NCBI GenBank assembly: GCA_029779435.1
Contig: JAKPAM010000069.1
Location: 1-64,000 of the forward strand
DNA length: 64,000 bases
Source of the DNA: Pseudomonadota bacterium
GTDB taxonomy: Bacteria > Pseudomonadota > Gammaproteobacteria > Burkholderiales > Burkholderiaceae_E
Reading direction: 5' to 3'
Both the position numbers and the translations under genes were made by a program. This document shows, in pieces, positions 2,575-20,972 of this stretch. Position 1 is the first letter of the stretch. Each line of letters opens with the position of its first letter. The notes below the pieces were generated by a model that saw nothing but the letters and a program-made list of their open reading frames with translations, had not been told where the DNA came from and did not search any database.

Positions 2575-3624
2575 TCAGTTCATTTGCACGACGGTCGATG
2601 GATCACGAACGCCTTTCGATTGAGTGGGTGCGAATCCGATCGCACTGCGATTTACGTCCGCGATCGAAGGCGCTGCGATCGCCAGGTAGGCCAGACGCTT
2701 GAACTCGCGGCGAGAGTGCGTGACCGTGTCCAGAATGAGTCCGCAGGTCAATGACAGGAACCCCAGCAACATGATCGAGGCCGCCAGGATCGCGCTGGGG
2801 AATCTGGGTACCAGGCCCGTCTCGAAGTAATCGATGAACACCGGCGTTGCGATGCCCAGCGACAGCGCCGCGAGGATCAGCCCCAGCAGCGCGAAGAACC
2901 GAAGCGGCCGTTCCTCTTTTACCAGCAGCCCGATCGTACGCAGGATGCGTACGCCATCCCGGATAGTGTGCAGCTTCGACGCCGAGCCTTCCGGGCGGTC
3001 CTTGTACTGGGTAGCCACCTCCGCCGTTTTCATGCGCAATTCCAGCGCGTGCACGGTCAGTTCGGTCTCGATCTCGAAGCCCGACGACAACGCCGGAAAC
3101 GACTTGACGAAGCGTCGCGAGAACACCCGGAATCCGGAGAGCATGTCGACGAACTGCCGCCCGAAGATCGACATGACCAGACCGGTTAGCAAGCGGTTGC
3201 CGAGCCGGTGCCCGGGCCGGTAGGCCTCCTTGATGTCGGAGACACGCGCGCCGTTGACCATGTCCAGTTGCGATGCCATCAACATGTCGACCATCAACGG
3301 CGCGGCCGACGCGTCATACGTGGCATCGCCATCGACCAGCACATAGACGTCGGCATCGATGTCGCTGAACATCCGCCGCATGACGTTTCCCTTACCCGGA
3401 AACGGCTCGAAGCGCACGACCGCGCCCGCGGCGGAGGCGACCTCGGCGGTACCGTCCGTCGAATTGTTGTCGTACACGTAGACCGTGGCGCCGGGCAGGT
3501 ACCGGCGGAAATCGCCGACCACCGACGCGATCGTTACCGCTTCGTTGTGGCACGGCACCAGTACGGCGATCGAGGGAGGCTGTGCGGGCGTGGGCATGGG
3601 GAGGTTCCGATCAGCGATCATCAC
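2575..3624 (-). CDS. Family 2 glycosyltransferase, GtrB/DPM1-like
   Basis: 349 residues. The N-terminal GT-A domain has IAVLVPCHNEAVTIASVV, the nucleotide-contact DNNSTDGT and the metal-binding DGDATYD. Two hydrophobic helices follow near residues 240-305 (FFALLGLILAALSLG and ILAASIMLLGFLSLTCGLI). This layout fits enzymes that move a sugar from a nucleotide donor to polyprenyl phosphate on the inner face of the cytoplasmic membrane. Its start overlaps the end of the GtrA gene by 14 bases. Translation could instead begin at the ATG at 3597. Together with the next two genes it resembles the three-part Gtr glycan-modification system; the sugar is unknown. Confidence 0.85.
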   Translation of the reverse strand: MMIADRNLPMPTPAQPPSIAVLVPCHNEAVTIASVVGDFRRYLPGATVYVYDNNSTDGTAEVASAAGAVVRFEPFPGKGNVMRRMFSDIDADVYVLVDGDATYDASAAPLMVDMLMASQLDMVNGARVSDIKEAYRPGHRLGNRLLTGLVMSIFGRQFVDMLSGFRVFSRRFVKSFPALSSGFEIETELTVHALELRMKTAEVATQYKDRPEGSASKLHTIRDGVRILRTIGLLVKEERPLRFFALLGLILAALSLGIATPVFIDYFETGLVPRFPSAILAASIMLLGFLSLTCGLILDTVTHSRREFKRLAYLAIAAPSIADVNRSAIGFAPTQSKGVRDPSTVVQMN

Positions 3625-3994
3625 GATAGACCCAGAAATTGGCGGCTGCGAAGTTGACGGTAAGCCCGGCCAGTGAACCGATGCCGACCGCCAGGGCAGG
3701 CGTCAGCCAGCTTTTCGACAACAGCATCATCGCGACGCTGTAAGCGATGAAGTTGACGATCGCTCCGCCCGACATCGCGACCAGGTAGCGACCGAACTCG
3801 GTCAGCGCGGATTGATCGCGGGGCTCGAACGTGTAACGGCGATTGATCCGCCAGGTCGTCAAGACCGCGAACAGGAACGAGACCAGCCGTCCGGCAAAAT
3901 GATTGACGGACAGCGCCAGCATGGCGTAAAGCACCGCCGCATCGATGATGAAGCCGATGACGCCGACGACGATGAAGCGTGAGAGGCGTTGCAT
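3611..3994 (-). CDS. GtrA-like membrane protein
   Basis: 127 residues with four predicted membrane helices, starting MQRLSRFIVVGVIGFIIDAA. It also has the family-typical NRRYTF just before the second pair of helices. GtrA proteins are thought to flip, or help present, lipid-linked sugars across the inner membrane. The gene is 3 bases downstream of the GT-C gene and overlaps the GT2 gene, so the three are very likely one operon. A GtrA relative also accompanies the decaprenyl-phosphate-arabinose genes of mycobacteria, which matters for the UbiA gene in this window. Confidence 0.88.
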   Translation of the reverse strand: MQRLSRFIVVGVIGFIIDAAVLYAMLALSVNHFAGRLVSFLFAVLTTWRINRRYTFEPRDQSALTEFGRYLVAMSGGAIVNFIAYSVAMMLLSKSWLTPALAVGIGSLAGLTVNFAAANFWVYRDDR

Positions 3995-3997
3995 CGG

Positions 3998-5449
3998 TCA
4001 GAACAGCAGTGCCGGGTCGTCGGACAAACGCGCGATGATGGCAACCACCGCGCACCCGACGATCGATGCGATCCAGAGCCGGAGCGATCGGTCGCCGTGT
4101 ACCAGGAGTGTTCGCAGTTGCGGTGCCAGCATGATCGAAGCGATCGCCGCGGCCGTGATCGGCCACATGTGGTAACGCATGTCGGTCGCCACGCCAACGC
4201 CCAGAAACGCCAAGGCATAAAGGCCCGCCGAGACCAGAAGGGACTGCTCGGCCCCGCCGAACGTCGAGTGCAGGCGCCCCTGCGCGAACAGCGTCAACAG
4301 CGCGGCTACGATCATCAACCAGAGGATCGGCAGCGTCGGCAACCGCTTCAGCGTGTCCTTGATGATCCACGTCATCGACGGGGCCTGGGCCTCCGGCGAT
4401 TGACGGCGCAGGTCATCGGGATCCGCGAAGCGGTACGGATCGGCGGGGACGATGAAGTACAGCATCGAATTGAAGTACTTCAACCGGTGCGTCAGATAAG
4501 CGAGCGGGTGATCGATCATGCTGTCGATCCACGCGTGGGTGACGAGTCCCGGGCTGGCGGCTTCGGCCTGCTTCACGTCCTCCCAGACCGGGCTGCATGT
4601 TCCCCACGATGCATAGCGATCCCAGTAATAGGCCGTGTGGCAGCCGCGTAAATAGGCCGGGTCGCGTGGTGTCAACCGGTTGGCGATCCCGTAGTCGTCG
4701 GACTGGCGTGCCGTGCCCATGATGTCGAAGAGCTGCAGCGACCGTTGGACGCCCGAAGGAGAGGGCGAGAACAGGACGCGATTGATACCCATCGATACGG
4801 GGATCGCGACGAGCGCGAGCACGACGGATGCGATGGCCAGCCGGAACAGCGACAACCTGGGCCGGAAAAGAAAGAGCAGGATCGCGCCATAAGCGAAGGC
4901 TGCGTTGGCACGCACGAGGGTTGCGTAGAGCAGGAAGACCAGCGCGAGCCCGATACACCAGCGCGCCCGCCGCGGCTGGCCATAGCGCCCCCAGTATCCC
5001 AGGCCGAACGCCATCAGCATGGCCGCCGTCAACTGCGAGTCGGACCAAGGCGTGTCCATGAAGCGCAGCATGTGGGGAGACAAGCCGCATAGCAGGACCG
5101 CCCAGGCTGATCGTGGGCGACCGCGTCTGGCCAGGGTCGAGGCGATCAGCCCCAGCCCGATCCATGTGCCGACCGTCTGCGCCAGCACGGGCGGCAGCAC
5201 CCCTTGCGAACCCGGTGGAACTACGTTGAGAAGCGCCGCCCACAGCGCGGCCATGATCGGGGGATGCCAGTCGTCATAGTGGCTGGCGCCGATCTGCTCC
5301 AACTGAGTCAGTGCATCGGCATTGATGCGTCCGGGATACTGGATCGCGAGGCACACCAGTAACAGGACCAATGCCACGAATGCCGGCCATCGGGCGGAAG
5401 CGGCGACGGACGCCGGCGAGTTCGAGAGATTCAAGGACCGGCGAGCCAT
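3998..5449 (-). CDS. Multi-spanning GT-C-like glycosyltransferase (GtrC-type partner)
   Basis: 483 residues with about ten hydrophobic helices. The first periplasmic loop carries acidic residues near its start (YPGRINADALTQL) followed by DWHPPIMAALWAALL. That arrangement is common in GT-C enzymes, which take sugar from polyprenyl phosphate on the outer face of the membrane. A large soluble loop lies around residues 225-345. As the first gene of the operon with gtrA-like and gtrB-like genes, it is the best candidate for the step that transfers the sugar to the final acceptor. Specificity of such enzymes cannot be read from sequence. Confidence 0.72.
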   Translation of the reverse strand: MARRSLNLSNSPASVAASARWPAFVALVLLLVCLAIQYPGRINADALTQLEQIGASHYDDWHPPIMAALWAALLNVVPPGSQGVLPPVLAQTVGTWIGLGLIASTLARRGRPRSAWAVLLCGLSPHMLRFMDTPWSDSQLTAAMLMAFGLGYWGRYGQPRRARWCIGLALVFLLYATLVRANAAFAYGAILLFLFRPRLSLFRLAIASVVLALVAIPVSMGINRVLFSPSPSGVQRSLQLFDIMGTARQSDDYGIANRLTPRDPAYLRGCHTAYYWDRYASWGTCSPVWEDVKQAEAASPGLVTHAWIDSMIDHPLAYLTHRLKYFNSMLYFIVPADPYRFADPDDLRRQSPEAQAPSMTWIIKDTLKRLPTLPILWLMIVAALLTLFAQGRLHSTFGGAEQSLLVSAGLYALAFLGVGVATDMRYHMWPITAAAIASIMLAPQLRTLLVHGDRSLRLWIASIVGCAVVAIIARLSDDPALLF

Positions 5450-5478
5450 GAGGGAGGTTCCGGGGAGACCGGATTATT

Positions 5479-5493
5479 GTGATTGTCGATCAC
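5479..5493. promoter_or_regulatory. Inverted repeat GTGAT-N5-ATCAC upstream of the GT-C operon
   Basis: Five-base arms 30-44 bases upstream of the operon's first ATG. The outline resembles a CRP half-site pair, but the spacing is one base longer than the usual TGTGA-N6-TCACA. It is listed only as a possible operator. Confidence 0.25.
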
Positions 5494-6147
5494 TAAAACA
5501 ATGCTCTGCTACACACCGTGACAATGTTCGGGTGGCACGGCCCATTTGGGGTAGGGATTCCAGTGCGATGCCCATTTTTCGGGATGAGTCGGCACCATGG
5601 TTTATCCAACTCGCCATCGCTTCTCTGCGAGATAAGTGGACGGGCGATGTCACGAGGTAGCGACTATTGTCGAGCGGCGGAGATTCGAATCCATCCGGAG
5701 ATGTTCGTGGGGTCGTGCATGGTGGCGATGGAATAGTTGGACGGTAACCCGGTAGGTGCGACGACGGTCTTTGCTAATGGGTCGATCTCGCGTGAGGCTA
5801 TTGGATCGGGCGAGTCTCTATTCGGACCGCCATTAAGAGGATTAGAAACGCCGCTGCTTTTCGCTTTGGCCGAGTTCCCTGTCGTGTCGTCGGCTGCAGT
5901 GTCCGGTTGCGATGGCGCATGTGGCCTTCGACGAAAGTGGAACCGCCGCGACGCGTCGGGCCGGCGTTGAGCTCGAGACAGTGGTTACGTCCCGGCACGT
6001 CGTTGTCTGGCGAGTGGACGTTTCGAGGCTCGGGGTTCGATGGTTTGTCGCATCGCCGTGGCCTCGTCGGCAATGGCCGAGTGTCGGTGCGATGCTTGTT
6101 AGAAAATGTGAAAAGTAAAACTTTCTTGCCAACAAAGATGTAAAGAA

Positions 6148-6172
6148 TTCCGTGATTTAGCGATCGTTAACC
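6148..6172 (+). repeat. Copy 1 of a 25-base intergenic repeat with a near-palindromic core
   Basis: The core ATTTAGCGATCGTTAACC (6155-6172) is identical to 9848-9865, and the match extends to 25 bases with two differences. The centre TTAGCGATCGTTAA is a palindrome apart from one pair. This copy is about 58 bases upstream of the acyltransferase start. It is most likely a shared regulator site. Confidence 0.55.
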
Positions 6173-6229
6173 GAAGTTGTCTGGTGAATCGGTGCATGGG
6201 CGAAAGTGGCCGGTAGGATCGGGTTGGAT

Positions 6230-7399
6230 ATGAGCGACTCCCGCATCGAAGAATCACGATCCATGGCTTCTCCCTCAGAAAAAATCTCCGGCTCGGCGGC
6301 GCGATCCCGCCGTCTTCCTTTCATCGATGGTTTGCGTGGCCTGGCGGCGCTGGCGATCGTGCTGTACCACACGGTCGAAGGACATCACGTCGAGACGCTG
6401 CGGGCGGCGTTGCCTGATTGGGTCTTCGCGCCGTTGCAGCAGGGCGCGCTGCGCGTCGCGGTGTTCTTCGTCATCGCCGGATTCGTGCTGGCCAAGTCGT
6501 TGGACGGCAAGCCGCGCGACGGGCAGGCCGGCTTGATGCTGACGCTTCGCCGCCTGGTGCGGCTCGGCCTGCCTTATTGGGTCGCCATCGCGGTGGTGAT
6601 CGCGTTCGCCGTATTGGCGTCAGCGGTCGTCAAGGGGCGCACGCCGGAGCATTACACGGCCGCGCAGATCGTCGCGCACATGTTCTTTCTGCAGGATCTG
6701 CTTCATTTCAAGCCGGTGAACCCCGCGTTCTGGACGCTCGGCATCGAGATGCAGTTGTTCTTCGTCTACCTGCTGTTCCATTTGCTCGGCGGTCCGCGTG
6801 CCCTCGTGATCCTCGCCGCTGTCCTCAGCTTGTGGTGGCCGTTGGCGGGGGATGCCGCGCCGCCGGTGAATGGCTGGTTCTTTCCGTACTGGCACGGTTT
6901 CCTGCTGGGCGCGGGGGCGTATCAGGCGCTGCGAGGCAGGTTGCCTTGGCCGCTCTTTCTCGTTTATACGGCGCTGGTGTTCGTCGGTGGTTATGTCCAC
7001 GACAGCGGCTTCTCGGTCGTATGCGTCGTTACCGCGATGGCGTTGGCCGTGGGCGGATTGACCGGAGGTCTGCGGACCTGGCTCGATTGGCGCTGGCTGC
7101 AATGGATCGGTCGGGTCTCGTTCTCGCTATACCTGATCCACAACCCGATCACCGGCGCGGTGTTTCGGGTGGGGCAGCCGATCGCAGCCGGATCCGCATC
7201 GGGTCAGGCGATCGTCTGGGTCATGGCGATCGCGGCCTGCCTCGTCGCTTCGGAGATCATGTGGCGCGTGGTCGAGAAACCCACGATGCGGCTCGCCCAG
7301 CGGATCAAGCCGGCGCAACGGCTTGCCGCTCCGAAGCGACCGGAGCGGCGGCGCGTCGGGGATCTCGGGGCGGCAACGACGGTGATACGGCCGGCTTGA
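6230..7399 (+). CDS. Membrane acyltransferase (acyltransferase 3 family)
   Basis: About 389 residues. The family's first helix has LPFIDGLRGLAALAIVLYH, in which the histidine is the presumed catalytic residue. The following helices contain VAVFFVIAGFVLAK and FWTLGIEMQLFF. Around ten membrane helices end in a basic tail. These enzymes carry acetyl or other acyl groups across the inner membrane onto surface polysaccharide. The track's start is a GTG at 6206. The ATG at 6230 is preferred here, and ATG 6263 is also possible. Its neighbours make it a likely glycan-decorating enzyme. Confidence 0.85.
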   Translation: MSDSRIEESRSMASPSEKISGSAARSRRLPFIDGLRGLAALAIVLYHTVEGHHVETLRAALPDWVFAPLQQGALRVAVFFVIAGFVLAKSLDGKPRDGQAGLMLTLRRLVRLGLPYWVAIAVVIAFAVLASAVVKGRTPEHYTAAQIVAHMFFLQDLLHFKPVNPAFWTLGIEMQLFFVYLLFHLLGGPRALVILAAVLSLWWPLAGDAAPPVNGWFFPYWHGFLLGAGAYQALRGRLPWPLFLVYTALVFVGGYVHDSGFSVVCVVTAMALAVGGLTGGLRTWLDWRWLQWIGRVSFSLYLIHNPITGAVFRVGQPIAAGSASGQAIVWVMAIAACLVASEIMWRVVEKPTMRLAQRIKPAQRLAAPKRPERRRVGDLGAATTVIRPA

Positions 7400-7427
7400 C
7401 CGGAGCGAGTCGCGCGCGCCATTCATC

Positions 7428-7455
7428 ATCGGGCGAGCATCGGGCTCGCCCCGAT
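7428..7455. terminator. GC-rich hairpin between convergent genes
   Basis: GGGCGAGC and GCTCGCCC form an 8-base stem around a short loop, extended by ATC/GAT pairs with one bulge. It sits exactly between the stops of the acyltransferase and the SDR gene. No T-run follows, so it may only weakly terminate or may block exonucleases. Confidence 0.4.
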
Positions 7456-7458
7456 CGT

Positions 7459-8214
7459 TCAGGGGCGACTTTTCCTGGCCAGCAGGCGCGATAAGGGCAT
7501 CCACAGGCGGGGCGTGGCCAACGCCAGCACCTTGGCGACCTTGTCGGGGCGGATCACGCCGGTCTTCCCTTGTTCGATTGCCTTCAGGAGTATTCCCGCA
7601 GCCTGCGCGGCGCTCATGGCCTGGCCGGCGCGCACGTGAGACGTCGCGCCCCCTTTGGATTGGAAGTTCGTGCTGATCGAGCCGGGACAGAAATCGAGGA
7701 TCTTCACGTCTCTCGAGGAGCCCTCGATTCGGGCGAGCTGCGTCACGGCGATCATCGCGGCCTTGCAGGCGGAATAGAGCCCATTGAACGGCATCGGCAC
7801 CTGGCCGGTGATCGAGCTGACGTTGACGACCATCGCATTCGATGGCGCCATTCTCAGAAACCGATTCATCAGCACCAATGGCGTGACGAAATTGAGCTGA
7901 GACAGCTGCTGTATCTGCTCGCTCGTCAAGCTCTCGAAGCTTCCGAACGTCGAGGCGCCGGCATTGTTCACCAGCACGTCATAGCAACACAGTTCCTGGT
8001 CGGAAATGAACGCCTGGGATGCCTGCGAGAGATCCGCTTGATAGAGCGCCGCCCCGGCCAAGCCGCCGCTGAGGGCTTTGTCCCGGCTGCGCACGACGAT
8101 GCCCACGGTCCAGCCCTTGGCCAGCATCTGTCGTGCGAGTTCCAATCCCAGGCCGTCACTGGCGCCGGTGATCAGCGCGCTATTGCGGACGCTAAGGTTT
8201 CGCGTGGACGGCAT
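7459..8214 (-). CDS. Short-chain dehydrogenase/reductase, possible DprE2-like partner
   Basis: 251 residues. The classical SDR cofactor motif ITGASDGLG is at residues 15-23, NNAG follows, the active-site serine is in VNVSSITG, and Y147-x3-K151 lies in YSACK. The C-terminal 60 residues are basic and may touch the membrane, as in SDRs acting on lipid substrates. The start codon lies inside the end of the oxidoreductase gene (23-base overlap), so the two enzymes are made together and probably catalyse successive oxidation and reduction. An oxidoreductase/SDR pair epimerises decaprenyl-phospho-ribose to arabinose in mycobacteria (DprE1/DprE2). Assigning that reaction here is inference. Confidence 0.85.
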   Translation of the reverse strand: MPSTRNLSVRNSALITGASDGLGLELARQMLAKGWTVGIVVRSRDKALSGGLAGAALYQADLSQASQAFISDQELCCYDVLVNNAGASTFGSFESLTSEQIQQLSQLNFVTPLVLMNRFLRMAPSNAMVVNVSSITGQVPMPFNGLYSACKAAMIAVTQLARIEGSSRDVKILDFCPGSISTNFQSKGGATSHVRAGQAMSAAQAAGILLKAIEQGKTGVIRPDKVAKVLALATPRLWMPLSRLLARKSRP

Positions 8215-9757
8215 GGACGATCCTGTCGGCGTGGGCCATCAATGACAGCGCGTACGTGGTGGCGGGAATGGACGTGAAGGAGGCGGCATCCACTAGATGA
8301 ACGTTAGTCGTCCCCATCGGCTGCCCCTTGGCGTCGGAGTAGAAGCCGGTCGCCTCGGGCTTCATCGGAAAGCTGGAGCCGATGTGAAAACTACGCCCCG
8401 GCGCCACCATCTTCAACGCGGGGATGAGCGCGATGGCATGCCATTTCAGGATCCTTTGGATGTTCAAGGCGGCCCAGAACGCGGTTTTCCTGGATTTCTT
8501 GTTCGGGATCCCTTCGATGCGGATCTGGTCGTCGGCTGCGGTCAAGGACAGGCCTGGAGACAGATCCGAATGCAGGAAGCCCTGGAACAGGACGAACCTG
8601 CCGGCAAAGAAATCGAGCAGGGGCTTCAGACGTCCCAACGGTCCCAATTGATTCTTCAGCGTCGCGCCGAAGATGCGGTTGTGCGGATAGACCTGGAAAT
8701 GCACCCAGCGGCCCTCGGATGCGGGCCCCTTCATTTCGACGAAGTGCTCGGCCAGCGTGAATCGATCGGCGCGAGGGATGCGTGCCTTTCTTCTCAAGAG
8801 CGCCGGAAAAAAGAAATACTGCGCATCCTTCAGAGGGATGCGCTGGTTGGTCAGGCCCAGCGATCTGGCCGTGATCGCCGTCGAATTCACGGCCCCCGCG
8901 GCCAGGAACAGACGGTTCGCGCGAAACGCGATCGGCTCGCCCGTTTCGGCATCCTTCGCTTCGACGATGACGGCGTCACCGTCCTTCCTGAACGAGCGCA
9001 CGAGGACGTTCGGGCGATAGTTGCCGCCCTGCGGGTCGAGATGATGCCAGTATGCGCGGGGATTGAAGATGGAGCCGTAGACGCAGCCGTCCAGGCAGTA
9101 CCCGCAGAGCCGGCATTGCTGGTTTTCGGAAAAGGCGTTCACCGCGAGCCGTGCGCGCCCGACCAGGATCTCGATGGATCGCTTCTTCCTGGCTGACAGG
9201 ATGGTCTTGAGTTGCTTGCCGATCGGGCTCAGCGGCAGGATGCCGACCTTCTTGGCCCATAGCGGAAAGCTCCTCTGCAGGGAGTCCGGGCCGCCGCAGA
9301 GCGGCACGTATCGCAGGACGCGCTTGTAAGCGTCCTGCATCTTGCCGACGTCGATCGGCCAGTCGGCGAGTTCGGTGCTCGAGAACGGCAGCGCGGCCGC
9401 CCCCCATACGTTGCCGAACCCGCCCCTGGCGAAGGACACGTCGACGATGCAGTTCGAGCAAACGATCCGTTCGCCCTCCGGTACGTCGTAGACGAAGCCG
9501 GATCCGAACGCATGGCGCTTGTCCACGCCTTCGGCGGATGTCCTGGGTAGCGGAAACAGCTCATCGCGGACACTGGGTGGCCACTCGGAGGGATCGATCC
9601 GGCTCAGTTCGCTGATCTCGTCCTGCAGTGGACGGCTCGGTTCGTTTCCCACATCCAGTACCAGGTAAGGCTGGCCGAGGTTCTTCAGCGCGAAAGCGGC
9701 GGCGAAAGCGGAAGGCCCCGAACCGACGACGATATTTTCAAAGACTTGTTCTGACAT
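8192..9757 (-). CDS. GMC-like FAD oxidoreductase with a four-cysteine cluster motif
   Basis: 521 residues. The N-terminal FAD fold has IVVGSGPSAFAAAFAL. The C-terminal HLVDAASFTSIPATTYALSL matches the end of GMC oxidoreductases. In the middle, C215-x2-C218-x2-C221-x3-C225 (CRLCGYCLDGC) looks like a ligand set for an iron-sulfur cluster, which ordinary GMC enzymes lack. No signal peptide is seen, so it should act in the cytoplasm or at the inner membrane face. It is coupled to the SDR gene and lies in a glycan locus, so an alcohol of a sugar or lipid-linked sugar is a likely substrate. It is not the family of mycobacterial DprE1, though it could play a similar part. Confidence 0.78.
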   Translation of the reverse strand: MSEQVFENIVVGSGPSAFAAAFALKNLGQPYLVLDVGNEPSRPLQDEISELSRIDPSEWPPSVRDELFPLPRTSAEGVDKRHAFGSGFVYDVPEGERIVCSNCIVDVSFARGGFGNVWGAAALPFSSTELADWPIDVGKMQDAYKRVLRYVPLCGGPDSLQRSFPLWAKKVGILPLSPIGKQLKTILSARKKRSIEILVGRARLAVNAFSENQQCRLCGYCLDGCVYGSIFNPRAYWHHLDPQGGNYRPNVLVRSFRKDGDAVIVEAKDAETGEPIAFRANRLFLAAGAVNSTAITARSLGLTNQRIPLKDAQYFFFPALLRRKARIPRADRFTLAEHFVEMKGPASEGRWVHFQVYPHNRIFGATLKNQLGPLGRLKPLLDFFAGRFVLFQGFLHSDLSPGLSLTAADDQIRIEGIPNKKSRKTAFWAALNIQRILKWHAIALIPALKMVAPGRSFHIGSSFPMKPEATGFYSDAKGQPMGTTNVHLVDAASFTSIPATTYALSLMAHADRIVHAVHAKP

Positions 9758-9840
9758 GCGGCAGGATCATCCGGGCGGCGTCATTCGATCGGCAATGCCG
9801 CGCGACTCAGCGGCGATGGTATGACGGGAGGGGAAGAAAT

Positions 9841-9865
9841 TTCCGGCATTTAGCGATCGTTAACC
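9841..9865 (-). repeat. Copy 2 of the 25-base intergenic repeat
   Basis: Same core as at 6155-6172, here 84-108 bases upstream of the leftward oxidoreductase gene. Relative to its target gene it has the opposite orientation to copy 1, which is acceptable for a near-palindromic protein-binding site. The two copies link the acyltransferase and the oxidoreductase/SDR pair in one possible regulon. Confidence 0.55.
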
Positions 9866-9883
9866 TGCAGTTCGCCAGCCGGA

Positions 9884-11599
9884 TCATTTCAATGTGAAGG
9901 TCAGCAGCGCGATGCCCGCGGGGTCGATCCGCAGGTCGGCACGGCGGCCGTCGTACCGCAGATCGACGTGGGGCGTCGTCATGCGCGGCCCGTTCCGGCT
10001 CGTCCAAGGCGCGAACACTCCGTTCGCGCCAAGCTGCTCGATTCGCGCGTCCGATGCGCGGCAGTCGGTCAGGTCCACGGTGATACGGGCGGGGCGGGCC
10101 GGATCCTTGTTGAGCAGCATCAGGTTCAGCCGCCTGCCCTGGCGCGTCGCCATCGTGGCGAGCAACGGCATGTCGGGGTAAGGCTCGGCGAGGCCGATGC
10201 GCGAGTCGGGCGCACGTCGCCGGGGGCTCGTCGTTCGATGCGCGACGTGATACCCGCCGTTGGCCAACGCGGATCGCGCCATCCGCATCACGTGGAAAGC
10301 GGGCCTGACGCGCGCCGGCGAGTGGCCCGGCTCGGAATCGATCGCGCCGAACTCGCCATTGCCGCTAAGTGACCACAGCATCGCGGCTTGCACGGCAGGG
10401 GCTTGCGCCATCACCCGGATCAGGTCGGCAACGAAAAGCGCACCCGCTTGCGTCGAGATGTAGCGGTTCTGATCGAGCGGGCGCTCATGGCCGCCGGCGC
10501 TGGCCAGATGCGCGTTCGTGAAGAACGCGTTGTACTCGGTGACCATCAGCCTGGGCATCGGGCGCGATGCTGTTTGCGCTTGTGCCGACCAGAAGCGCGC
10601 GACCGCGTCCAGATGCAGGCGCAGGGTCTCGCTGCCGGCGACGGCGGCCCAGTACAAGCCGTCATCGTCGGGAACGGCCGCGAGGGACAGCGGGGACGCC
10701 AGGCCCACGAGCGGCATGTACAGATGCAGCGCCAGGCCGTACAGGCGCTCGGGCACTGACAGCGCATCGAGCAGGCCGCGCGCATAGCCCAACTGCTCGC
10801 CGACCACGGTCGCCTGCTCGCCGCCTGGATGCCAGGGACGTCCCGACAGCGTGTCCAACGCGAAAGGCACGACGATGCGCAGGCTCGGGTCGACGGCGAG
10901 CATCGCCGACATCGCGGCGTCGACGCGCCGCGCGAAGACGGCGGGGGTGAAGAACTCCCGATTGGCGCGGCCGTCGGCGGTGCGCGAGTCGCGGACATAC
11001 GGCTCGTTGCCCAGCTCCCAGTATGGGACCTTGGGTAGCGGCTTGCCCGTGAGCCGCGAGCGCAGGCGGTCGACGTTGATGGTTCGGACCCAGTCGGACA
11101 CCTGCGAAGCCAGCGCCTTTTCATTGCCTTCGAACAGGTTCACCTGGATCAGCGGCTGCGCGCCCTGCGACTCGCACAGTTCGAGGAATTCCTGCGTGCC
11201 CAACAGGATGCGCTGCGGCGCTTGCCATCGGTCAGGCTGAACCAATGGCCTCGTGCCCATCGGCCCCAGGCCCTGGCGCCAATGGAATCCGATCGCCGGT
11301 TCTCCCGCCATGTAGCGCAGGATCGGCGGCGACCATTCCCGCACGCGCGCCAGCATCTCGGGCCGGGGCAGCCCCTCCGCGCTAAGCAGGCCTTCGCCCG
11401 CATGGATCCACGGCACGTTGCTGCCGATCAGCAGCGGATTCGTGGGCCCCAGCCGGCGTTCGCCATCGATCTCGATCCGAACGTCGAAGGGGCCGCTGGC
11501 CGTGCGTAGTCCTTCGTTCGCGGCATGCACGGTACGCATTGCGGTCGATGCGGTCGCCAGCGTGGCGATCGTCCTGCGGCGGGCGGGGGAAATGGTCAT
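9884..11599 (-). CDS. Clan GH-A-like glycoside hydrolase, paralogue of the next gene
   Basis: 571 residues. The catalytic barrel shows YWELGNEPY with the presumed acid/base E199, and VTEYNAFF with the presumed nucleophile E355. This pattern belongs to retaining clan-A enzymes such as arabinofuranosidases and glucuronidases (GH39/51/79-like). The family cannot be fixed by eye. A beta-sandwich probably follows from about residue 470. The start MTISPARRRTIATLATAST is arginine-rich then moderately hydrophobic, a weak signal-peptide candidate. The gene is divergent from a clear paralogue with the same motif order. A role in trimming or turning over the locus's glycan is likely. Confidence 0.75.
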   Translation of the reverse strand: MTISPARRRTIATLATASTAMRTVHAANEGLRTASGPFDVRIEIDGERRLGPTNPLLIGSNVPWIHAGEGLLSAEGLPRPEMLARVREWSPPILRYMAGEPAIGFHWRQGLGPMGTRPLVQPDRWQAPQRILLGTQEFLELCESQGAQPLIQVNLFEGNEKALASQVSDWVRTINVDRLRSRLTGKPLPKVPYWELGNEPYVRDSRTADGRANREFFTPAVFARRVDAAMSAMLAVDPSLRIVVPFALDTLSGRPWHPGGEQATVVGEQLGYARGLLDALSVPERLYGLALHLYMPLVGLASPLSLAAVPDDDGLYWAAVAGSETLRLHLDAVARFWSAQAQTASRPMPRLMVTEYNAFFTNAHLASAGGHERPLDQNRYISTQAGALFVADLIRVMAQAPAVQAAMLWSLSGNGEFGAIDSEPGHSPARVRPAFHVMRMARSALANGGYHVAHRTTSPRRRAPDSRIGLAEPYPDMPLLATMATRQGRRLNLMLLNKDPARPARITVDLTDCRASDARIEQLGANGVFAPWTSRNGPRMTTPHVDLRYDGRRADLRIDPAGIALLTFTLK

Positions 11600-11755
11600 C
11601 GGAGAGGGGCCAGGATCGGGAATGGTGCTGTCGGGGGGCGACAGCTTCTGTGTAGCCGGCCGTTTCCGCTTGTTTGCAACAGATTTGGCTGAATTAAGTG
11701 AATTTTTGTTAAAAAGTAGTTAGATGATAAATGCGCAACTCATAATTCCATGAGG

Positions 11756-11773
11756 TATTTATTTAAATAAATA
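11756..11773. promoter_or_regulatory. 18-base AT-only palindrome in the divergent promoter region
   Basis: TATTTATTTAAATAAATA is a perfect palindrome 14 bases before the ATG at 11787, inside a strongly AT-rich 130-base stretch shared by two divergent hydrolase genes. Such DNA is a typical target for silencing by H-NS/MvaT-like proteins or for promoter melting. No specific regulator is recognised. Confidence 0.35.
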
Positions 11774-11786
11774 TAAATTAAAGATC

Positions 11787-13508
11787 ATGAAAATAATTGT
11801 AGCGCTTGTGCTGTTTTCTGGTGTTTTGCCTGTCTGGGCGCAGGCAACATATCCGGCGTCGATCAGTGTCAATGTCTCCGCCGCGGCAATATCGGCGGCT
11901 CCGAAGCTGTATTCAACGACGCTCAGCGGAGCAAACACTCCGTGGCCAGGCCAAGGAGAAGCTATTTACGCGAATGGTGCGGTAGAGCCGCGGCTATTTG
12001 CGTTGGCGCAGGGCCTGGGTAATCAGGTATTGAGATATCCTGGAGGCGAGTTTTCTGATTCGTATATATGGACAAAAGGCATAGGACCAAGAGCGCAACG
12101 CCAAAATCTGACTTACTACCCATCGGCGAGCAGCAATCAAACAGTGAGTGAGAGGGTCGACTTCGGTACGGATGAGTTTCTGGATTACTGTTTCTCCTTG
12201 GGTTGCACGCCGATATTTCAAATAAACATGCATTCGACGGCAAGCGCCGTTGGCGTCGCTGCGACAGCGAATGAAATCGCAACGAATGCCGCGAACTGGC
12301 AAGCGTATGTGCTCGACTATGCGGCGTCGAAGGGCCGCTCCAATCAGGCGATTTACTGGGAATTGGGAAATGAGCCATATTTGAAGAATATGTATCATGA
12401 GGGCGGGGTTTCTAATCATCTTTTTATTTCGGATGCCGAATTCGTCAGTAGAGTGAATAAGGTCATTGAGAGGATGGCTCCTCAAACGAAATTCATTCTT
12501 CCGTTCGCACTGGATACATGGAATGGGAATACGTACAGCCAAGCATCTGCGTCTGCCAATCCGGCCACGGTGGTAGGGGATCACATCTCGATCCCCTCTA
12601 CCGGGAAAGTGGGATATTGGAAGACGGTTCTCGACGGTATTTCCTATGCGAATCGCTCCAAAATACACGCGTTGGGACTTCACTACTACATGCCGAATAT
12701 AGGCGTGGTGGCAAGCGAGTCCGCGGCGCCTCCGGACGACAAGCTGTTTTGGGCAACCATGGCTGGAGCTAAGTCGATCTCAACGATTAATATTCCGGCG
12801 ATTCGTGCACAATGGAATGCTCATTCGATCGCAAAGAACTTTCCACTACGGTTGGCGGTAACGGAATTCAATTCTATGTATACCCTCAATTACCCAGGGG
12901 TAAGGCAGAATGCTTTCGTGGCGTCGCAGACCGGAGCTGTTTTTATTTCGGATCTCCTGACCGAACTTGCCAAACAACCTGATGTGACGCTCGGCGCGAT
13001 TTGGAGTATGTCTACCAATGGGTATTTTGGAGCGATCAGCTTTGCTGATTTGCCTCCAAGTTATCCAACGTTCGTCAGGCCCAGTTATTTCTCCTTGACA
13101 TGGGTCAGGGATCTTCTATCGGATGCCGCGTCGAAGTTGATAGTTCCCACTGTTTCCGTGCAATCATATGGTGGATATACCTCTCCGGTGGGGTTTTCGA
13201 TGCCATCGTCGATTTCGCTGATGAACGCAGTGGCGAGTGTGTCTCCAGGCAAGATTCTTCGAGTTCTTATTACAAATCGAGAAATTTCCGTGCCGGGCAA
13301 TGTGACACTTTTTTTGTCTGGTGGAAACGCTGCTTCCGCCAGCTTGAAGAAAATGCAGGTCGCGGCCAATGGCCAATTCTTGACCAGCGAAATTAGTGCG
13401 GTAACGACTTCGCCCCCTGCACAGCCCATTTCGACCACGAACCCTCAACAACTGAGCTTCACTGTTCCTGCGTATAGCACTGCATTGTTGACGATTCAAC
13501 TCCAATAA
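11787..13508 (+). CDS. Secreted clan GH-A-like glycoside hydrolase of atypical base composition
   Basis: 573 residues with a clear signal peptide, MKIIVALVLFSGVLPVWAQA. The barrel repeats the motifs of the neighbouring gene: IYWELGNEPY with E196 and VTEFNSMY with E360. It also shares ILPFALDTWNG (VVPFALDTLSG in the paralogue) and a tryptophan-serine motif near residue 410. The C-terminal 100 residues are beta-rich. The coding sequence is visibly AT-richer than its neighbours, which suggests later acquisition or different selection. The substrate is probably the surface polysaccharide or a related plant or soil glycan. An arabinofuranosidase-like activity is one option. Confidence 0.8.
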   Translation: MKIIVALVLFSGVLPVWAQATYPASISVNVSAAAISAAPKLYSTTLSGANTPWPGQGEAIYANGAVEPRLFALAQGLGNQVLRYPGGEFSDSYIWTKGIGPRAQRQNLTYYPSASSNQTVSERVDFGTDEFLDYCFSLGCTPIFQINMHSTASAVGVAATANEIATNAANWQAYVLDYAASKGRSNQAIYWELGNEPYLKNMYHEGGVSNHLFISDAEFVSRVNKVIERMAPQTKFILPFALDTWNGNTYSQASASANPATVVGDHISIPSTGKVGYWKTVLDGISYANRSKIHALGLHYYMPNIGVVASESAAPPDDKLFWATMAGAKSISTINIPAIRAQWNAHSIAKNFPLRLAVTEFNSMYTLNYPGVRQNAFVASQTGAVFISDLLTELAKQPDVTLGAIWSMSTNGYFGAISFADLPPSYPTFVRPSYFSLTWVRDLLSDAASKLIVPTVSVQSYGGYTSPVGFSMPSSISLMNAVASVSPGKILRVLITNREISVPGNVTLFLSGGNAASASLKKMQVAANGQFLTSEISAVTTSPPAQPISTTNPQQLSFTVPAYSTALLTIQLQ

Positions 13509-13685
13509 CCGCCTAGTTGTCGGGTTTGAAGGAGTTTTTGCCACTATTCCTGATATTTCGAGAGGTCGTATCGAAGCAGTTCAGGCTTGATACACAGTTT
13601 CTAAAGCTCATCGAGACGTTGATCCCCTAGCATCGTCGGCAACAGCAGCCTTCTGGGCGCGGCAATCGCGTCCGCGTTGTCCTCG

Positions 13686-15296
13686 ATGAATACCGTAACG
13701 ATGAATCGAGCCGCCTCCGTACGCCTTCCACCGAGATGGGGGGCGGTACCTTGGGGTGGCCTCGTGTTGGCGCTGGTCGTAGGTCTCGTGGCCGTCAGTG
13801 ACCAGAGTCTCTGGATCGATGAACTCGGCACCTGGCGCCTGACCCGTGCGGACGACCTGTCCGCATGGCTCACGCAGTTGCTGAGATGGCCCAACTCCGA
13901 CGCGCAGCTTCCGGTCTATCACGGCTGGATCAAGTTATGGGCGTCGTGCTTCGGGACGAACGAGTGGGCGCTTAGGGCCTCCAACCTGCCGTGGCTTCTG
14001 CTGATCGGGTGGGCCTTCTGGGTGGCGCCCGTCGAGCGGGAGGATCGCGTGCTGGCGCGGCTGGCCGGCGTGGTCTGCCTGCTGCATCCGCTGACTTGGT
14101 ACTACACGAACGAACTGCGGCCGTACGTGATGTTGCTGGCGGCTTCGGCGCTGGCCGGGGTCGGGTTGCTGGGGATCGCTTGGCCCGCGCGCCCGAACGG
14201 TGCGCGTGCGGCCTGGCATCTGCTTATCGTCGGCTGTGCGCTGCTGTCGGTCACCAGCGCGATCGGTGCGATCTGGGTGCTGGCCTTCCTGCCGGCCAGC
14301 CTGTGGCTGGCCAGACGGGATCCGGGCGGCACGTTGGGGTTGGGGCGCTCGCACATCTGGACATTCGCCGTCTGCGCGGTGTGCGTCCTGCCGGTCCTGA
14401 TCCAGTACCTGCATTCATTCGTTGCCGGTGTCGGTGCCACGACCCTGCATGAGCACAAGCTGGTCAACTTCGCGTTCGCGTTCTACGAACTGACAGGCTT
14501 GAGTGGACTGGGCCCGGGCCGCGAGATCTTGCGCGTCGATGCGATCGGCGCGATGCGCGAGCAGGCCGCCTGGGTGGCGGCCGGGGCGTTGCCGATCTTC
14601 TGCGTGGCGGTGATCGGTTTGCGCGCCCTGTGGAAGCGCCAGGGAAGCGATCTGCTGATCGTGCTGGGCTGGGCGCTCGTGCCCGTGCTGATCCTGCTCG
14701 GACTTGCCGAGTTGAAGCACTGGCGAGTCGTGGGCCGGCATCTGCTGCCGTTGCTGTTCTTCGTCTGCCTGGTGCTGGCCGCGGGTGCTCATTGGGCGTT
14801 CACGCAGACGTCGTCGCGATGGTCGAGGGTGTTGGCGGTCGGGATGTTCGCCGCCTTGCTCGTGTCGTCGCTATCGATCCGCTTCGCGCATCGTCATGAA
14901 CGCGAGGAATACCGGGATGCCGCAGCGGCGGCCGCTCAGTCGGTGTTGCGGGGTCAGATCGTCTGGTGGTTTGCCGACGCGCCAGGCCCCGAGTACTACG
15001 GGTTGGGCGCGCGGGTTCAGAAGCTGGTACCGATCGAGTTGTACGAAATCGCTTACCGGCATCTGTACGACGGGATGCTGAGCCGGATCGTCACCGACTG
15101 CAGCGATGTCGGGCCCGGCACCGTGCTGATTCTGGAGAGCCCCAACGCCGAGATGCTGGCCGGCTGTCCGCCCGCCGACCGCGTCATCTATTCGCGGCAG
15201 GACACCTTCGATACGACTGGCGCCGGCATGGCGTGGATGCGTGCCAGGGGTATGCACCGGCAGAGCCGATTCACGGGATTCGAGATATGGCAATGA
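13686..15296 (+). CDS. GT-C/GT39-like membrane glycosyltransferase
   Basis: About 536 residues with roughly eleven membrane helices. After the first helix comes DQSLWIDELGTWRL, where the acidic pair in the first periplasmic loop matches the metal/phosphate site of ArnT- and PMT-like GT-C enzymes. A C-terminal periplasmic domain of about 110 residues begins near residue 420. Such proteins use polyprenyl-phosphate sugars. The next gene, predicted to make a polyprenyl-phosphate pentose, overlaps its stop as ATGA, so this could be the transferase using that donor. TTG 13677, ATG 13686 and ATG 13701 are all possible starts; none has a clear ribosome-binding site. Confidence 0.75.
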   Translation: MNTVTMNRAASVRLPPRWGAVPWGGLVLALVVGLVAVSDQSLWIDELGTWRLTRADDLSAWLTQLLRWPNSDAQLPVYHGWIKLWASCFGTNEWALRASNLPWLLLIGWAFWVAPVEREDRVLARLAGVVCLLHPLTWYYTNELRPYVMLLAASALAGVGLLGIAWPARPNGARAAWHLLIVGCALLSVTSAIGAIWVLAFLPASLWLARRDPGGTLGLGRSHIWTFAVCAVCVLPVLIQYLHSFVAGVGATTLHEHKLVNFAFAFYELTGLSGLGPGREILRVDAIGAMREQAAWVAAGALPIFCVAVIGLRALWKRQGSDLLIVLGWALVPVLILLGLAELKHWRVVGRHLLPLLFFVCLVLAAGAHWAFTQTSSRWSRVLAVGMFAALLVSSLSIRFAHRHEREEYRDAAAAAAQSVLRGQIVWWFADAPGPEYYGLGARVQKLVPIELYEIAYRHLYDGMLSRIVTDCSDVGPGTVLILESPNAEMLAGCPPADRVIYSRQDTFDTTGAGMAWMRARGMHRQSRFTGFEIWQ

Positions 15297-16909
15297 GAGA
15301 CGACGTCGGCGATCGACATCCCACGGTTCCCGGACCCGGAGCAACGGGCGGTCGCGTCAGCGGTAGCGCCGCGCGGCGTGGAACGGTCGGCGCGGCAACG
15401 ATCGCGGACAGATCCGCGATGCCGTTGTTCGTCGATCTGGATGGCACGCTGATCCGCACCGATCTGTTGTACGAGTCGTTCCTGGACCGGCTCAAACACG
15501 ATTGGATATTGCCCGGGCGGGTGTTGTCGTGGCTGACTCGCGGCAAGGCCTACATGAAGGCGCAGCTTGCCCGGGGTTACCGGGTGCCGACCGAAAGCCT
15601 GCCGTACAACGAGGCCGTCATCGATCGCGTGCAGGCGGCCAGGAAGCAGGGGCGCCGCGTCTACCTGGCGACGGCGAGCCACGTCAGCCTCGCCGAGGCG
15701 ATCGGCGCGCATCTGGGCATGTTCGACGGAGTGATCGCATCGGACCAGCGCGTCAACGTCAGCGGAAGCGAGAAACTCGAACGCCTGCGCGAGGTCACGG
15801 GCTCCGACCGCTTCGAGTACATGGGCAACAGCGGATCCGACATTCCGATCTGGGAGGCGTGCGCGATCGCCGACGTGGTCGAGCCCGACCGCGCGGCGCG
15901 TCGATGGGTCGCGGATCACGCGCACAAGGCTCGTGTGCTGGCCGGGACGGCGAATCGTGCGGAGGCGGTGGGCACGGGGACCGGCGCGCCGTCGGCGCCG
16001 CGGTCGACCGCGCGATCAACGGCCTGGCGTGATCGGCTGAGGATCCTGCGGCCGCATCAATGGTTGAAGAACCTGCTGCTGTTCGTGCCGCTGGTCACCG
16101 CGCACCTGGCGCTGGATCCGCGCAGCGTGCTGCTGACGCTGATGGCCTTCGTCGCGTTCAGCCTGTGCGCTTCGGCCGTCTATGTCATCAATGACATGCT
16201 CGACCTGAACGCCGATCGCGTCCATCCGAGAAAGCGTCACCGTCCCTTCGCCAGCGGTGCGGTCCCGTTGTCTTTCGGATTCAAGGCGGCACCCTTGCTC
16301 ATGCTGGGCGCGGGTCTGGTCGCCGCGCTGGTTTCACCGTTGTTCGTCGGGGCACTCGGGTTGTATCTGGTGATGACCTTCGCTTATTCGTTCAGCCTGA
16401 AGCGGAAGATGGCGATCGACGTCCTGATGCTGGCGGGCCTGTATACGATGCGCATCATCGCCGGCACGGCGGCGATCGGCGTCGCGCCATCGAACTGGCT
16501 GATGGGATTCTCGACGTTCCTGTTCTTCGGGCTGGCGCTCGTCAAGCGCAGCAGCGAACTGATGGTCGCCGCCGATTCGGGCAAGTCCGGTGCCTCGGGA
16601 CGAAATTACCTGGTAGCCGATCTGTTGATGGTCAACTCGATGGGCATCGCCAGTTCGTATCTGAGCGTGCTGGTGCTGGCGCTGTACATCAACAGCGCCG
16701 AAGTCCGAACCTTGTATGCGCACCCTTATGGGTTATGGCTGCTGTGTCCGCTGCTGCTGTACTGGCTGACTCGCCTGTGGCTGATCACGCAGCGAGGCGG
16801 CATGCACGATGATCCGGTGATCTACGCGGCGCGTGATCGCGTCAGCCAGCTCGTCGCCTTGTGCGGGCTTGGCGTGGTGCTCGCCAGTTCGCTGCCGTGG
16901 GTGTCATGA
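15293..16909 (+). CDS. HAD phosphatase-UbiA prenyltransferase fusion, polyprenyl-phosphate phosphoribosyltransferase-like
   Basis: About 538 residues. After a low-complexity leader, a HAD domain carries DLDGTL (D48, D50), TASH and GNSGSDIPIWE. From about residue 245 a UbiA domain follows with RPHQWLKN, then NDMLDLNADRVHP (N300, D301) and YSFSLKRKMAIDVLMLAG, with eight or nine helices. These UbiA motifs match decaprenyl-phosphate 5-phosphoribosyltransferase, the first committed step to lipid-linked arabinofuranose. The fused HAD domain could remove the 5-phosphate. ATG 15293 overlaps the previous stop (ATGA). ATG 15287 or 15419 would also work, and 15419 would remove the leader. Reaction assignment comes from family resemblance only. 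Confidence 0.8.
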   Translation: MRDDVGDRHPTVPGPGATGGRVSGSAARRGTVGAATIADRSAMPLFVDLDGTLIRTDLLYESFLDRLKHDWILPGRVLSWLTRGKAYMKAQLARGYRVPTESLPYNEAVIDRVQAARKQGRRVYLATASHVSLAEAIGAHLGMFDGVIASDQRVNVSGSEKLERLREVTGSDRFEYMGNSGSDIPIWEACAIADVVEPDRAARRWVADHAHKARVLAGTANRAEAVGTGTGAPSAPRSTARSTAWRDRLRILRPHQWLKNLLLFVPLVTAHLALDPRSVLLTLMAFVAFSLCASAVYVINDMLDLNADRVHPRKRHRPFASGAVPLSFGFKAAPLLMLGAGLVAALVSPLFVGALGLYLVMTFAYSFSLKRKMAIDVLMLAGLYTMRIIAGTAAIGVAPSNWLMGFSTFLFFGLALVKRSSELMVAADSGKSGASGRNYLVADLLMVNSMGIASSYLSVLVLALYINSAEVRTLYAHPYGLWLLCPLLLYWLTRLWLITQRGGMHDDPVIYAARDRVSQLVALCGLGVVLASSLPWVS

Positions 16910-18004
16910 GAGCCGTGATCGCCGCCCCAGCAGCGGTGTCAATCTGGCGGCCAGATCGTGCCTGCGCGCCAGCGCGGGCTCTTCGACAAAGTGCCAGGAA
17001 AGCCATGCGAGAACGCCAACGATCGGCGTGGCGCTGAGCGTCAACGCCCAGATCGACAGGCCGGGCTTTGTCGCCATGATCATTTGTTGAATCGGGCATG
17101 CGTAGATGTAGATGCCGTATGAGTAGTCACCGAACTTGTTGAAACTCAGCAGGTTCTTGTTGATCGGCCAGTAAGCAATGAAAAGAACGAGATAGGGCAG
17201 GCAAAGCAGGTAGATCACACTGAATGCGCTGAGGGAATGAATGACCCCCGCAACCAGAGCGAGCGATGCCAGGATGAACGTGACAGGGGAGAGCCGCACT
17301 TTCTTGCGAAAGAACTGATATGCGTTTCCACTGAAAAACATCGCTACCAGCCTCGAAACCACGGGCAGCTTTCCGTGATCGGAAAAATATACACAGAAAA
17401 CGACCAATGCAATCGCGCTGATCAGGCTTGCTCGTTTCAATCGAAGATGGCGATCCTGATGTGACGTAAAGAGTGCGATAACAAAAAATACGAGCGCAAG
17501 CACGGCATACAGGCGTAGTTCGTAGCGCAGCGTCCACAGTGACCCATTCACTACGGAAGGCAGGATGTTTGCTGCAAATGCCCCGGGCAGATCCGCTTCC
17601 GCCCCGGTAATCATCACTGCATTCTTCAGCAGGTACTTCCAGGTTTGAATGCCGCCGAAGTAGGCTGGAATCGATTCGGCGCTGAACCAGATGCCAACCG
17701 TGCCCGCCGTCCATGACAGCGCAACCCAAAGGCCGGGGTAGATTCGCAGAGCCCGTGCAATCGAGAACTCCAGCAAAGTCTTGCTGCGGAGCAGGCTGCC
17801 GGTGACAAGAAAGCCGCTGACGACGAAGAAGACATCGACTGCGACGCCTCCCGGGGTCGTGCCTATGATTTCTTGCCAAGGTTCGGCATGCATGTCGCCC
17901 GTGGCAAACACATAGCTATGGCTGGCCAGGACGGCCCACGCCGCAATCAACCGGATCAAATTGAGGTTGTTGTCTCGTCCAACCGCTCGCTCGTCGAGCG
18001 TCAT
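16904..18004 (-). CDS. Membrane acyltransferase (acyltransferase 3 family)
   Basis: About 366 residues. The family signature is NLNLIRLIAAWAVLASHSYVF with the catalytic histidine, followed by VDVFFVVSGFLVTGSLL and a clear glutamate-containing LWTLRYELRLY. About ten helices follow. The ATG at 18004 is preferred over the track start at 18055 because GAGGTGGAGAT lies just ahead of it. The gene converges on the UbiA gene and overlaps its end by 6 bases. Its composition is AT-richer than the flanking genes, so it may have been acquired separately. A glycan O-acylation role is expected. Confidence 0.86.
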   Translation of the reverse strand: MTLDERAVGRDNNLNLIRLIAAWAVLASHSYVFATGDMHAEPWQEIIGTTPGGVAVDVFFVVSGFLVTGSLLRSKTLLEFSIARALRIYPGLWVALSWTAGTVGIWFSAESIPAYFGGIQTWKYLLKNAVMITGAEADLPGAFAANILPSVVNGSLWTLRYELRLYAVLALVFFVIALFTSHQDRHLRLKRASLISAIALVVFCVYFSDHGKLPVVSRLVAMFFSGNAYQFFRKKVRLSPVTFILASLALVAGVIHSLSAFSVIYLLCLPYLVLFIAYWPINKNLLSFNKFGDYSYGIYIYACPIQQMIMATKPGLSIWALTLSATPIVGVLAWLSWHFVEEPALARRHDLAARLTPLLGRRSRLS

Positions 18005-18460
18005 ATTGAAATCTCCACCTCGAAATGAAACGATTTTGGCTTGAAGTCGGCGCACCGGTCATTGCACGATTCCGCCATGGCTGCTTCCCGCCGCGGCGCG
18101 CGAGTGCATCGGTGTTCTGCGCACTACAGTACACCGCGCTTGGGCGATTCCAGCGCCCGTCAGAAGCGAATTAAAAAACCCTCACAAATTTCCGGAATCA
18201 GGTATTCGTGTTGAGAAATTCATTGGATCATCGACACCAAATACTGCATTCTCGTGAATGCTTTGAAAGGACGCCGTAAGCCTACTAGGGACGCGCTGAT
18301 CAATTCCACCCGGCCGTCGCATCCGCCCCTCGGGCGGTCCGCCGCGTTGCCCTTTGCGGCTAATAGCACCGCTATTGACCACGAATGGCGCCATGCGTCC
18401 CATCCCGACGGACGGCGCGAGCGGCTCGGGCGAATTGATCAGCGCGTCCCTAGGCGCGGG
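18005..18460. other. Intergenic region carrying a small transposon-like element
   Basis: About 456 bases without a credible gene. The left half should contain the promoter of the leftward acyltransferase. The right half is the inverted-repeat element described separately, which ends 7 bases beyond the stop of the agarase-like gene. Confidence 0.5.
18285..18453. mobile_element. MITE-like element with 18-base inverted ends and CTAG flanks
   Basis: The left end GGACGCGCTGATCAATTC (18289-18306) is repeated exactly in inverted form at 18432-18449, and weaker inverted similarity continues inward. CTAG lies immediately outside both ends (18285-18288 and 18450-18453). That fits the 4-base YTAR target duplication of IS5-group transposons. 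The element is about 161 bases, too short for a transposase, and has a small internal hairpin (AATAGC-ACC-GCTATT). It is best read as a non-autonomous IS5-like element or remnant. Because CTAG is itself a palindrome, the duplication is not proven. Confidence 0.55.
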
Positions 18461-20842: not shown

Positions 20843-20972
20843 CGGCCTCTCTCGTCGCGAATCGATGTCGGACGATGGTAGCACTGGCCTTCCGGGCGTC
20901 CGCCGAGCGCCGTGGCGTGACGGTCAATCGGACGCGACTGATTGACCGCTTGCGCTTAGTGTGCGCCGGCGC

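Follow-up and report, generated by a model that had tools for sequence, protein, structure and literature searches.

A GMC-fold flavoprotein and its SDR partner in a predicted lipid-linked pentofuranose locus

Gene content and layout

We analyzed a 64,000-nucleotide stretch of DNA (hereafter the window), which starts at a contig end, so that the locus may reach beyond its left edge. ORF, Pfam, and profile searches of region 2575-18055 recovered every gene named by an earlier note on this DNA, together with two acyltransferases and a separate GT2-GtrA-GT-C1 operon, both of which the note had overlooked. The genes of the region are as follows:

2575-3624, minus strand: GT2, predicted AglJ/DPM-like polyprenyl-phosphate hexose synthase (TIGR04182, 213 bits, cut-off 325)
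3611-3994, minus strand: GtrA-type small membrane protein, candidate flippase (PF04138, 66.5 bits)
3998-5449, minus strand: GT-C1, polytopic transferase of the gtr cassette, adjoining GtrA (7 hydrophobic segments, no family match)
6206-7399, plus strand: acyltransferase 3, predicted glycan O-acylation (PF01757, 91 bits)
7459-8214, minus strand: classical SDR, predicted keto-sugar reductase (PF00106, E 1e-31)
8192-9757, minus strand: GMC-fold flavoprotein (FAD protein) with a CxxCxxCxxxC motif, predicted oxidase of lipid-linked pentofuranose
9884-11599, minus strand: GHa, hydrolase paralogous to GHb, upstream of the FAD-SDR pair and divergent from GHb
11787-13508, plus strand: GHb, exported hydrolase, partially GH51-like, upstream of GT-C2 and HAD-UbiA
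13677-15296, plus strand: GT-C2, predicted polytopic transferase using lipid-linked pentofuranose (8 hydrophobic segments, no Pfam or profile family match)
15293-16909, plus strand: HAD-UbiA fusion, predicted polyprenyl-phosphate phosphoribosyltransferase and 5'-phosphatase (PPPRS-PRP)
16904-18055, minus strand: acyltransferase 3, predicted glycan O-acylation (PF01757, 78 bits)

Two units diverge outward from 11600-11786: GHa, the FAD protein, and the SDR on the minus strand, and GHb, GT-C2, and HAD-UbiA on the plus strand, with the paralogous hydrolase pair as the point from which the FAD-SDR and HAD-UbiA operons depart. GT2, GtrA, and GT-C1 form a tight minus-strand operon of their own (2575-5449) with the layout of a gtr cassette, and an acyltransferase sits between this operon and the FAD-SDR pair. 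These three genes look like a separate hexose-type cassette outside the pentose route. The earlier note had assigned GtrA and both GT-C proteins to a pentose pathway; the genes are indeed present, but GtrA and GT-C1 fit the GT2 hexose cassette better (GT-C1 and GT-C2 are called GT-C solely from their many hydrophobic segments in hydropathy plots).

The HAD-UbiA fusion and the lipid-linked pentose step

The preferred start of the HAD-UbiA fusion is the ATG at 15293 (538 aa), which overlaps the GT-C2 stop codon as ATGA, an arrangement of translational coupling. The protein scores 597 bits against NF006088/PRK08238 (cut-off 351), and its UbiA part aligns with the M. tuberculosis phosphoribosyltransferase whose structure is solved (8j8j, E 8e-30). 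The HAD nucleophile D48 is kept, as are N300, D301, D304, and D308 of the NDxxDxxxD motif, R419, and E422. Kelly et al. 2024 showed that the Citrobacter HAD-UbiA fusion ORF15, whose family layout the window protein shares, makes polyprenyl-phosphate-ribofuranose from PRPP; a GT-C enzyme then uses this lipid outside the cytoplasm, and accessory epimerases alter the sugar, with arabinofuranose assigned to DprE1/E2 homologs and xylofuranose to a GalE-like SDR (PMC11127046). With the family score above cut-off, the catalytic residues intact, and the family function shown, this is probably a PRPP-type enzyme, as the earlier note proposed, and there is good support for its wider proposal, a pathway for lipid-linked pentofuranose. 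As the general pathway in Gram-negative bacteria has been in the literature since 2024 (PMC11127046), its class is known and lipid-linked pentose loading is not new.

In the window's order, 82 of 399 genomes match HAD-UbiA, many in the UbiA or the HAD part only. Among 40 fusion loci taken from that order, 16 carry a DprE1-like gene, nearly always adjacent to the fusion, and none carries an FAD gene of the window type.

A GMC-fold flavoprotein, probably in place of a DprE1-type oxidase

The FAD protein has no Pfam match at 1e-3, only a weak GMC_oxred_C hit, and the Pfam search of 8192-9757 returned neither of the FAD_binding_4 and ALO domains of DprE1-type enzymes. Its AF2 model (pLDDT 93) has a clear GMC fold, for which the best Foldseek matches were FAD-GDH 6a2u (E 1e-23) and fructose dehydrogenase, with pyranose and C-glycoside oxidases also among them. 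The oxidase is thus GMC-like and unrelated to DprE1, as the earlier note had read it, and is a new oxidase type in a lipid-linked pentose setting.

To compare residues, a profile of 50 homologs of the FAD protein was aligned to B. cepacia glucose dehydrogenase. C215, C221, and C225 of the window protein align with the 3Fe-4S ligands C212, C218, and C222 of FAD-GDH and are each present in 49/50 homologs, and the active-site H458, invariant in 50/50 sequences, aligns with H476. At the second GMC catalytic position (Asn/His) the window has Thr501 (T in 37, S in 7, and N in 2 of the 50), and the chemistry of the FAD protein could therefore differ. The GMC fold, the three cysteine positions, and the active-site His are shared with FAD-GDH 6a2u and with membrane fructose dehydrogenase; by contrast, identity to FAD-GDH is only ~17%, the catalytic Asn is replaced by Thr, the window protein has an extra cysteine of its own (C218), and no small-subunit or cytochrome-subunit gene adjoins the FAD gene, whose neighbors are the SDR and a hydrolase. 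Pyranose 2-oxidase and the C-glycoside oxidases, which resemble the FAD protein in oxidizing sugar ring hydroxyls with a GMC fold, act on free sugars or glycosides, not on lipid-linked sugars, and we know of no counterpart in them of the window-type cysteine motif.

The SDR and FAD genes share 23 bp, in agreement with the coupled FAD/SDR pair that had been proposed, and the SDR has both a cofactor motif (TGASDGLG, for TGxxxGxG) and a YxxxK motif (YSACK). By these general SDR features it would be a partner reductase, as in DprE1/DprE2.

The draft genome yielded no DprE1 ortholog, but as it is 84% complete this absence is not final. The sole PF04030-like candidate, an 819-aa FAD_binding_4 protein on another contig (L004, contig C96), is distantly DprE1-like; it was rejected as an ortholog, being a methyltransferase-like fusion to which the DprE1 probe is 22% identical, whereas a genuine DprE1 locus reaches 34% (the probe, an approximate DprE1 sequence, served for searching only).

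The hydrolases do not identify the sugar

GHa and GHb are 31% identical and have two candidate catalytic Glu in common (E196/E360 in GHb). Both match GH51 arabinofuranosidases weakly and over part of their length: GHa matches 3s2c at E 9e-13 over ~130 aa, and GHb matches 2vrk at E 2e-9 over ~145 aa and NF051901 at E 2e-11, far under the cut-off. GHb has a hydrophobic segment at its N-terminus, and its predicted structure, built from two sequences, has a pLDDT of 43, too low for use. The two hydrolases had been placed in a clan that includes arabinofuranosidases; because their matches to GH51 L-arabinofuranosidases are weak and partial, they do not identify the sugar.

Distribution and partners of the FAD family

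Scanning 85,462 species, we kept 80 loci of 140 FAD-family relatives, which span many phyla. In 61/80 an NAD-dependent epimerase/reductase lies no more than 400 bp from the FAD gene, a recurrence that argues for oxidation followed by reduction. Across 74 genomes of the window's own family no FAD homolog rose above background, only distant members were found in its order, and none was found in phage and viral collections.

The clade that holds the window protein (SH-aLRT 99) has eight members, the other seven being L090 (Oleiphilus), L091 (Verrucomicrobia), L092 and L189 (Gemmatimonadota), L093 (Microbulbifer), L094 (Henriciella), and L212; the clade is small and was sampled by peptide patterns and then by homology searches. 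A HAD-UbiA gene lies within 10 kb of the FAD gene in L090, L092, L094, and L189, four loci in three lineages; among scanned loci, this is the case for 3/5 clade members vs. 0/75 others (Fisher p = 1.2e-4). Any UbiA or HAD match was seen in 18/39 genomes of the FAD co-occurrence check, but many of these matches were partial and the count was set aside as evidence. All four HAD-UbiA-linked loci also contain a class-III aminotransferase, 57-85% identical among the four; the other genomes checked, the window's included, have generic aminotransferases only (~30-38% identity). L092 and L189 have the gene order aminotransferase, HAD-UbiA, FAD, and in L090 and L094 the aminotransferase directly precedes FAD (cassettes at L092:7138-11554, L189:6965-11491, L094:3351-11602, and L090:8542-18311); some of these cassettes include an SMR gene as well as GT-C-like genes. 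No locus besides the window combines FAD, SDR, and HAD-UbiA.

Some loci stand out in other ways. In L092 the HAD part of the fusion (8566-9969) reads VELDRT, not VDLDGT, with Glu at the nucleophile position, and from its sequence this phosphatase may be inactive. On the Rhizobium plasmids of L087 and L088 an FAD-family gene and an epimerase lie beside SIS-domain, HAD, and GHMP-kinase genes, a set reminiscent of nucleotide sugar routes of the heptose type.

A proposed pathway and its alternatives

We favor, with a probability of roughly 55%, the reading that the locus is an extracytoplasmic pentofuranosylation system in which the FAD-SDR pair is an analogue of DprE1/DprE2 built on an unrelated oxidase. 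By likeness to its Citrobacter relative, HAD-UbiA would use PRPP to load phosphoribose onto polyprenyl phosphate and would remove the 5'-phosphate. The cytoplasmic GMC-fold FAD/Fe-S protein would then oxidize the lipid-linked ribofuranose at a ring hydroxyl, most likely that of C2, the electrons leaving via the Fe-S cluster, and the overlapping SDR would reduce the ketone from the opposite face to give the epimer, most likely polyprenyl-phospho-D-arabinofuranose. A flippase, possibly the GtrA protein, would export the lipid-linked sugar, GT-C2 would move the pentofuranose onto a surface glycan, and the exported hydrolases and the acyltransferases would respectively trim and decorate that glycan.

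The oxidase is common to SDR- and aminotransferase-partnered loci, so the simplest account is that a keto sugar is made on the lipid; the most likely product of the flavoenzyme is a keto-pentofuranosyl lipid, to be reduced by the SDR or aminated by the aminotransferase. Preferring C2 over C3 as the site of oxidation is a guess by analogy with DprE1/E2. GMC enzymes often oxidize primary alcohols, and oxidation at C5 is possible in the aminotransferase loci but would not account for an SDR partner. As for the product, D-arabinofuranose, which the earlier note had put forward, is plausible, while ribofuranose, xylofuranose, or a keto sugar would also fit.

If HAD-UbiA and GT-C2 simply added plain ribofuranose, the FAD-SDR pair could instead remodel a polyprenyl-phosphate hexose made by the GT2 (2575-3624). 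The window GT2 is 39-42% identical to the GT2s of FAD-family loci L103, L105, and L111, a resemblance by which the FAD protein could act on a lipid-linked hexose; FAD genes elsewhere are usually partnered by an epimerase, a GT2 occurs somewhere in 38/80 loci, and HAD-UbiA loci such as L045 and L047 have no epimerase (L047 carries an SMR-like gene). However, the window FAD protein belongs to the HAD-UbiA-linked clade and not to the GT2-linked groups, and it is with HAD-UbiA that the FAD-SDR pair diverges from the paralogous hydrolases, the GT2 operon being set apart by an acyltransferase; we consider a hexose substrate unlikely.

A pentofuranose substrate would also allow epimerization at C3, giving xylofuranose, or a product that remains a keto sugar. 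C-glycoside and pyranose oxidases rank high among the fold matches and xylofuranose side chains are known from a sister system, but that system uses a single GalE-like SDR, whereas a flavin enzyme with a reductase is the arabinofuranose layout (PMC11127046), which makes such an outcome rather improbable. That the FAD-SDR pair lies near glycan genes by chance and acts on something other than a lipid-linked sugar, e.g. a free sugar or a lipid, we regard as highly improbable: the draft genome is fragmented and some family members (L093) have no adjoining glycan genes, but epimerase pairing recurs across phyla, and the HAD-UbiA link recurs in one clade across three lineages.

Beyond the window, we tentatively suggest, at somewhat less than even odds, that the FAD family comprises widespread, undescribed Fe-S GMC oxidases of polyprenyl-phosphate-linked sugars, the product being set by the partner: an epimer with an SDR or epimerase, and a lipid-linked amino-deoxy-pentofuranose with the class-III aminotransferase (Gemmatimonadota, Henriciella, and Oleiphilus). 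The literature searched held no report of such an amino-deoxy-pentofuranose donor, and a search that covered few subscription journals found no paper that connects lipid-linked pentofuranose to GMC oxidoreductases or to aminotransferases.

Relation to known systems

The mycobacterial DPA pathway (Rv3806c, Rv3807c, DprE1/DprE2, Emb/Aft) resembles the route predicted for the window in passing from PRPP to polyprenyl-phosphate-ribose, in pairing a flavin oxidase with an SDR, and in its GT-C enzymes. It differs in its phosphatase, which in the window is a HAD domain, and in DprE1 itself, a tuberculosis drug target with an FAD_binding_4/ALO fold to which the GMC fold is unrelated. Closer in layout is the three-component system of Citrobacter youngae O1/O2 (ORF12-ORF15), which likewise has a HAD and UbiA-type fusion; it also has a GT-C alongside and an accessory remodeling enzyme (PMC11127046), whose predicted counterparts in the window are GT-C2 and the FAD-SDR pair. 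Its flippase, however, is MATE; the window has the GtrA protein and, by phmmer, no SMR homolog. For remodeling, three-component systems rely on one GalE-like SDR or, where the sugar is Araf, on DprE1/E2 homologs, whereas the window has a GMC-fold oxidase with an Fe-S motif.

Remodeling of lipid-linked ribofuranose is known for DprE1/DprE2 or a single GalE-like SDR; if the favored reading is true, a non-homologous oxidase in the same role would mean convergent evolution of this step, and an Fe-S sugar dehydrogenase would be at work on membrane lipids. From the aminotransferase cassettes a lipid-linked amino-pentofuranose is to be expected, and, with the FAD family in many phyla, the glycan structures of many unstudied bacteria would become predictable.

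Other genes of the window

Between the contig end, which truncates it, and the GT2 lies a beta-helix protein (3-2269, minus strand). Beyond the second acyltransferase is an 807-aa protein that is glycoside hydrolase-like by eye, with no Pfam match (18461-20884, minus strand). Further along the minus strand, a trypsin-like peptidase + TPR-S protein (24390-26129) and a TIR + TPR-S + trypsin-like protein (31252-33675) form a candidate cluster for defense or signaling.
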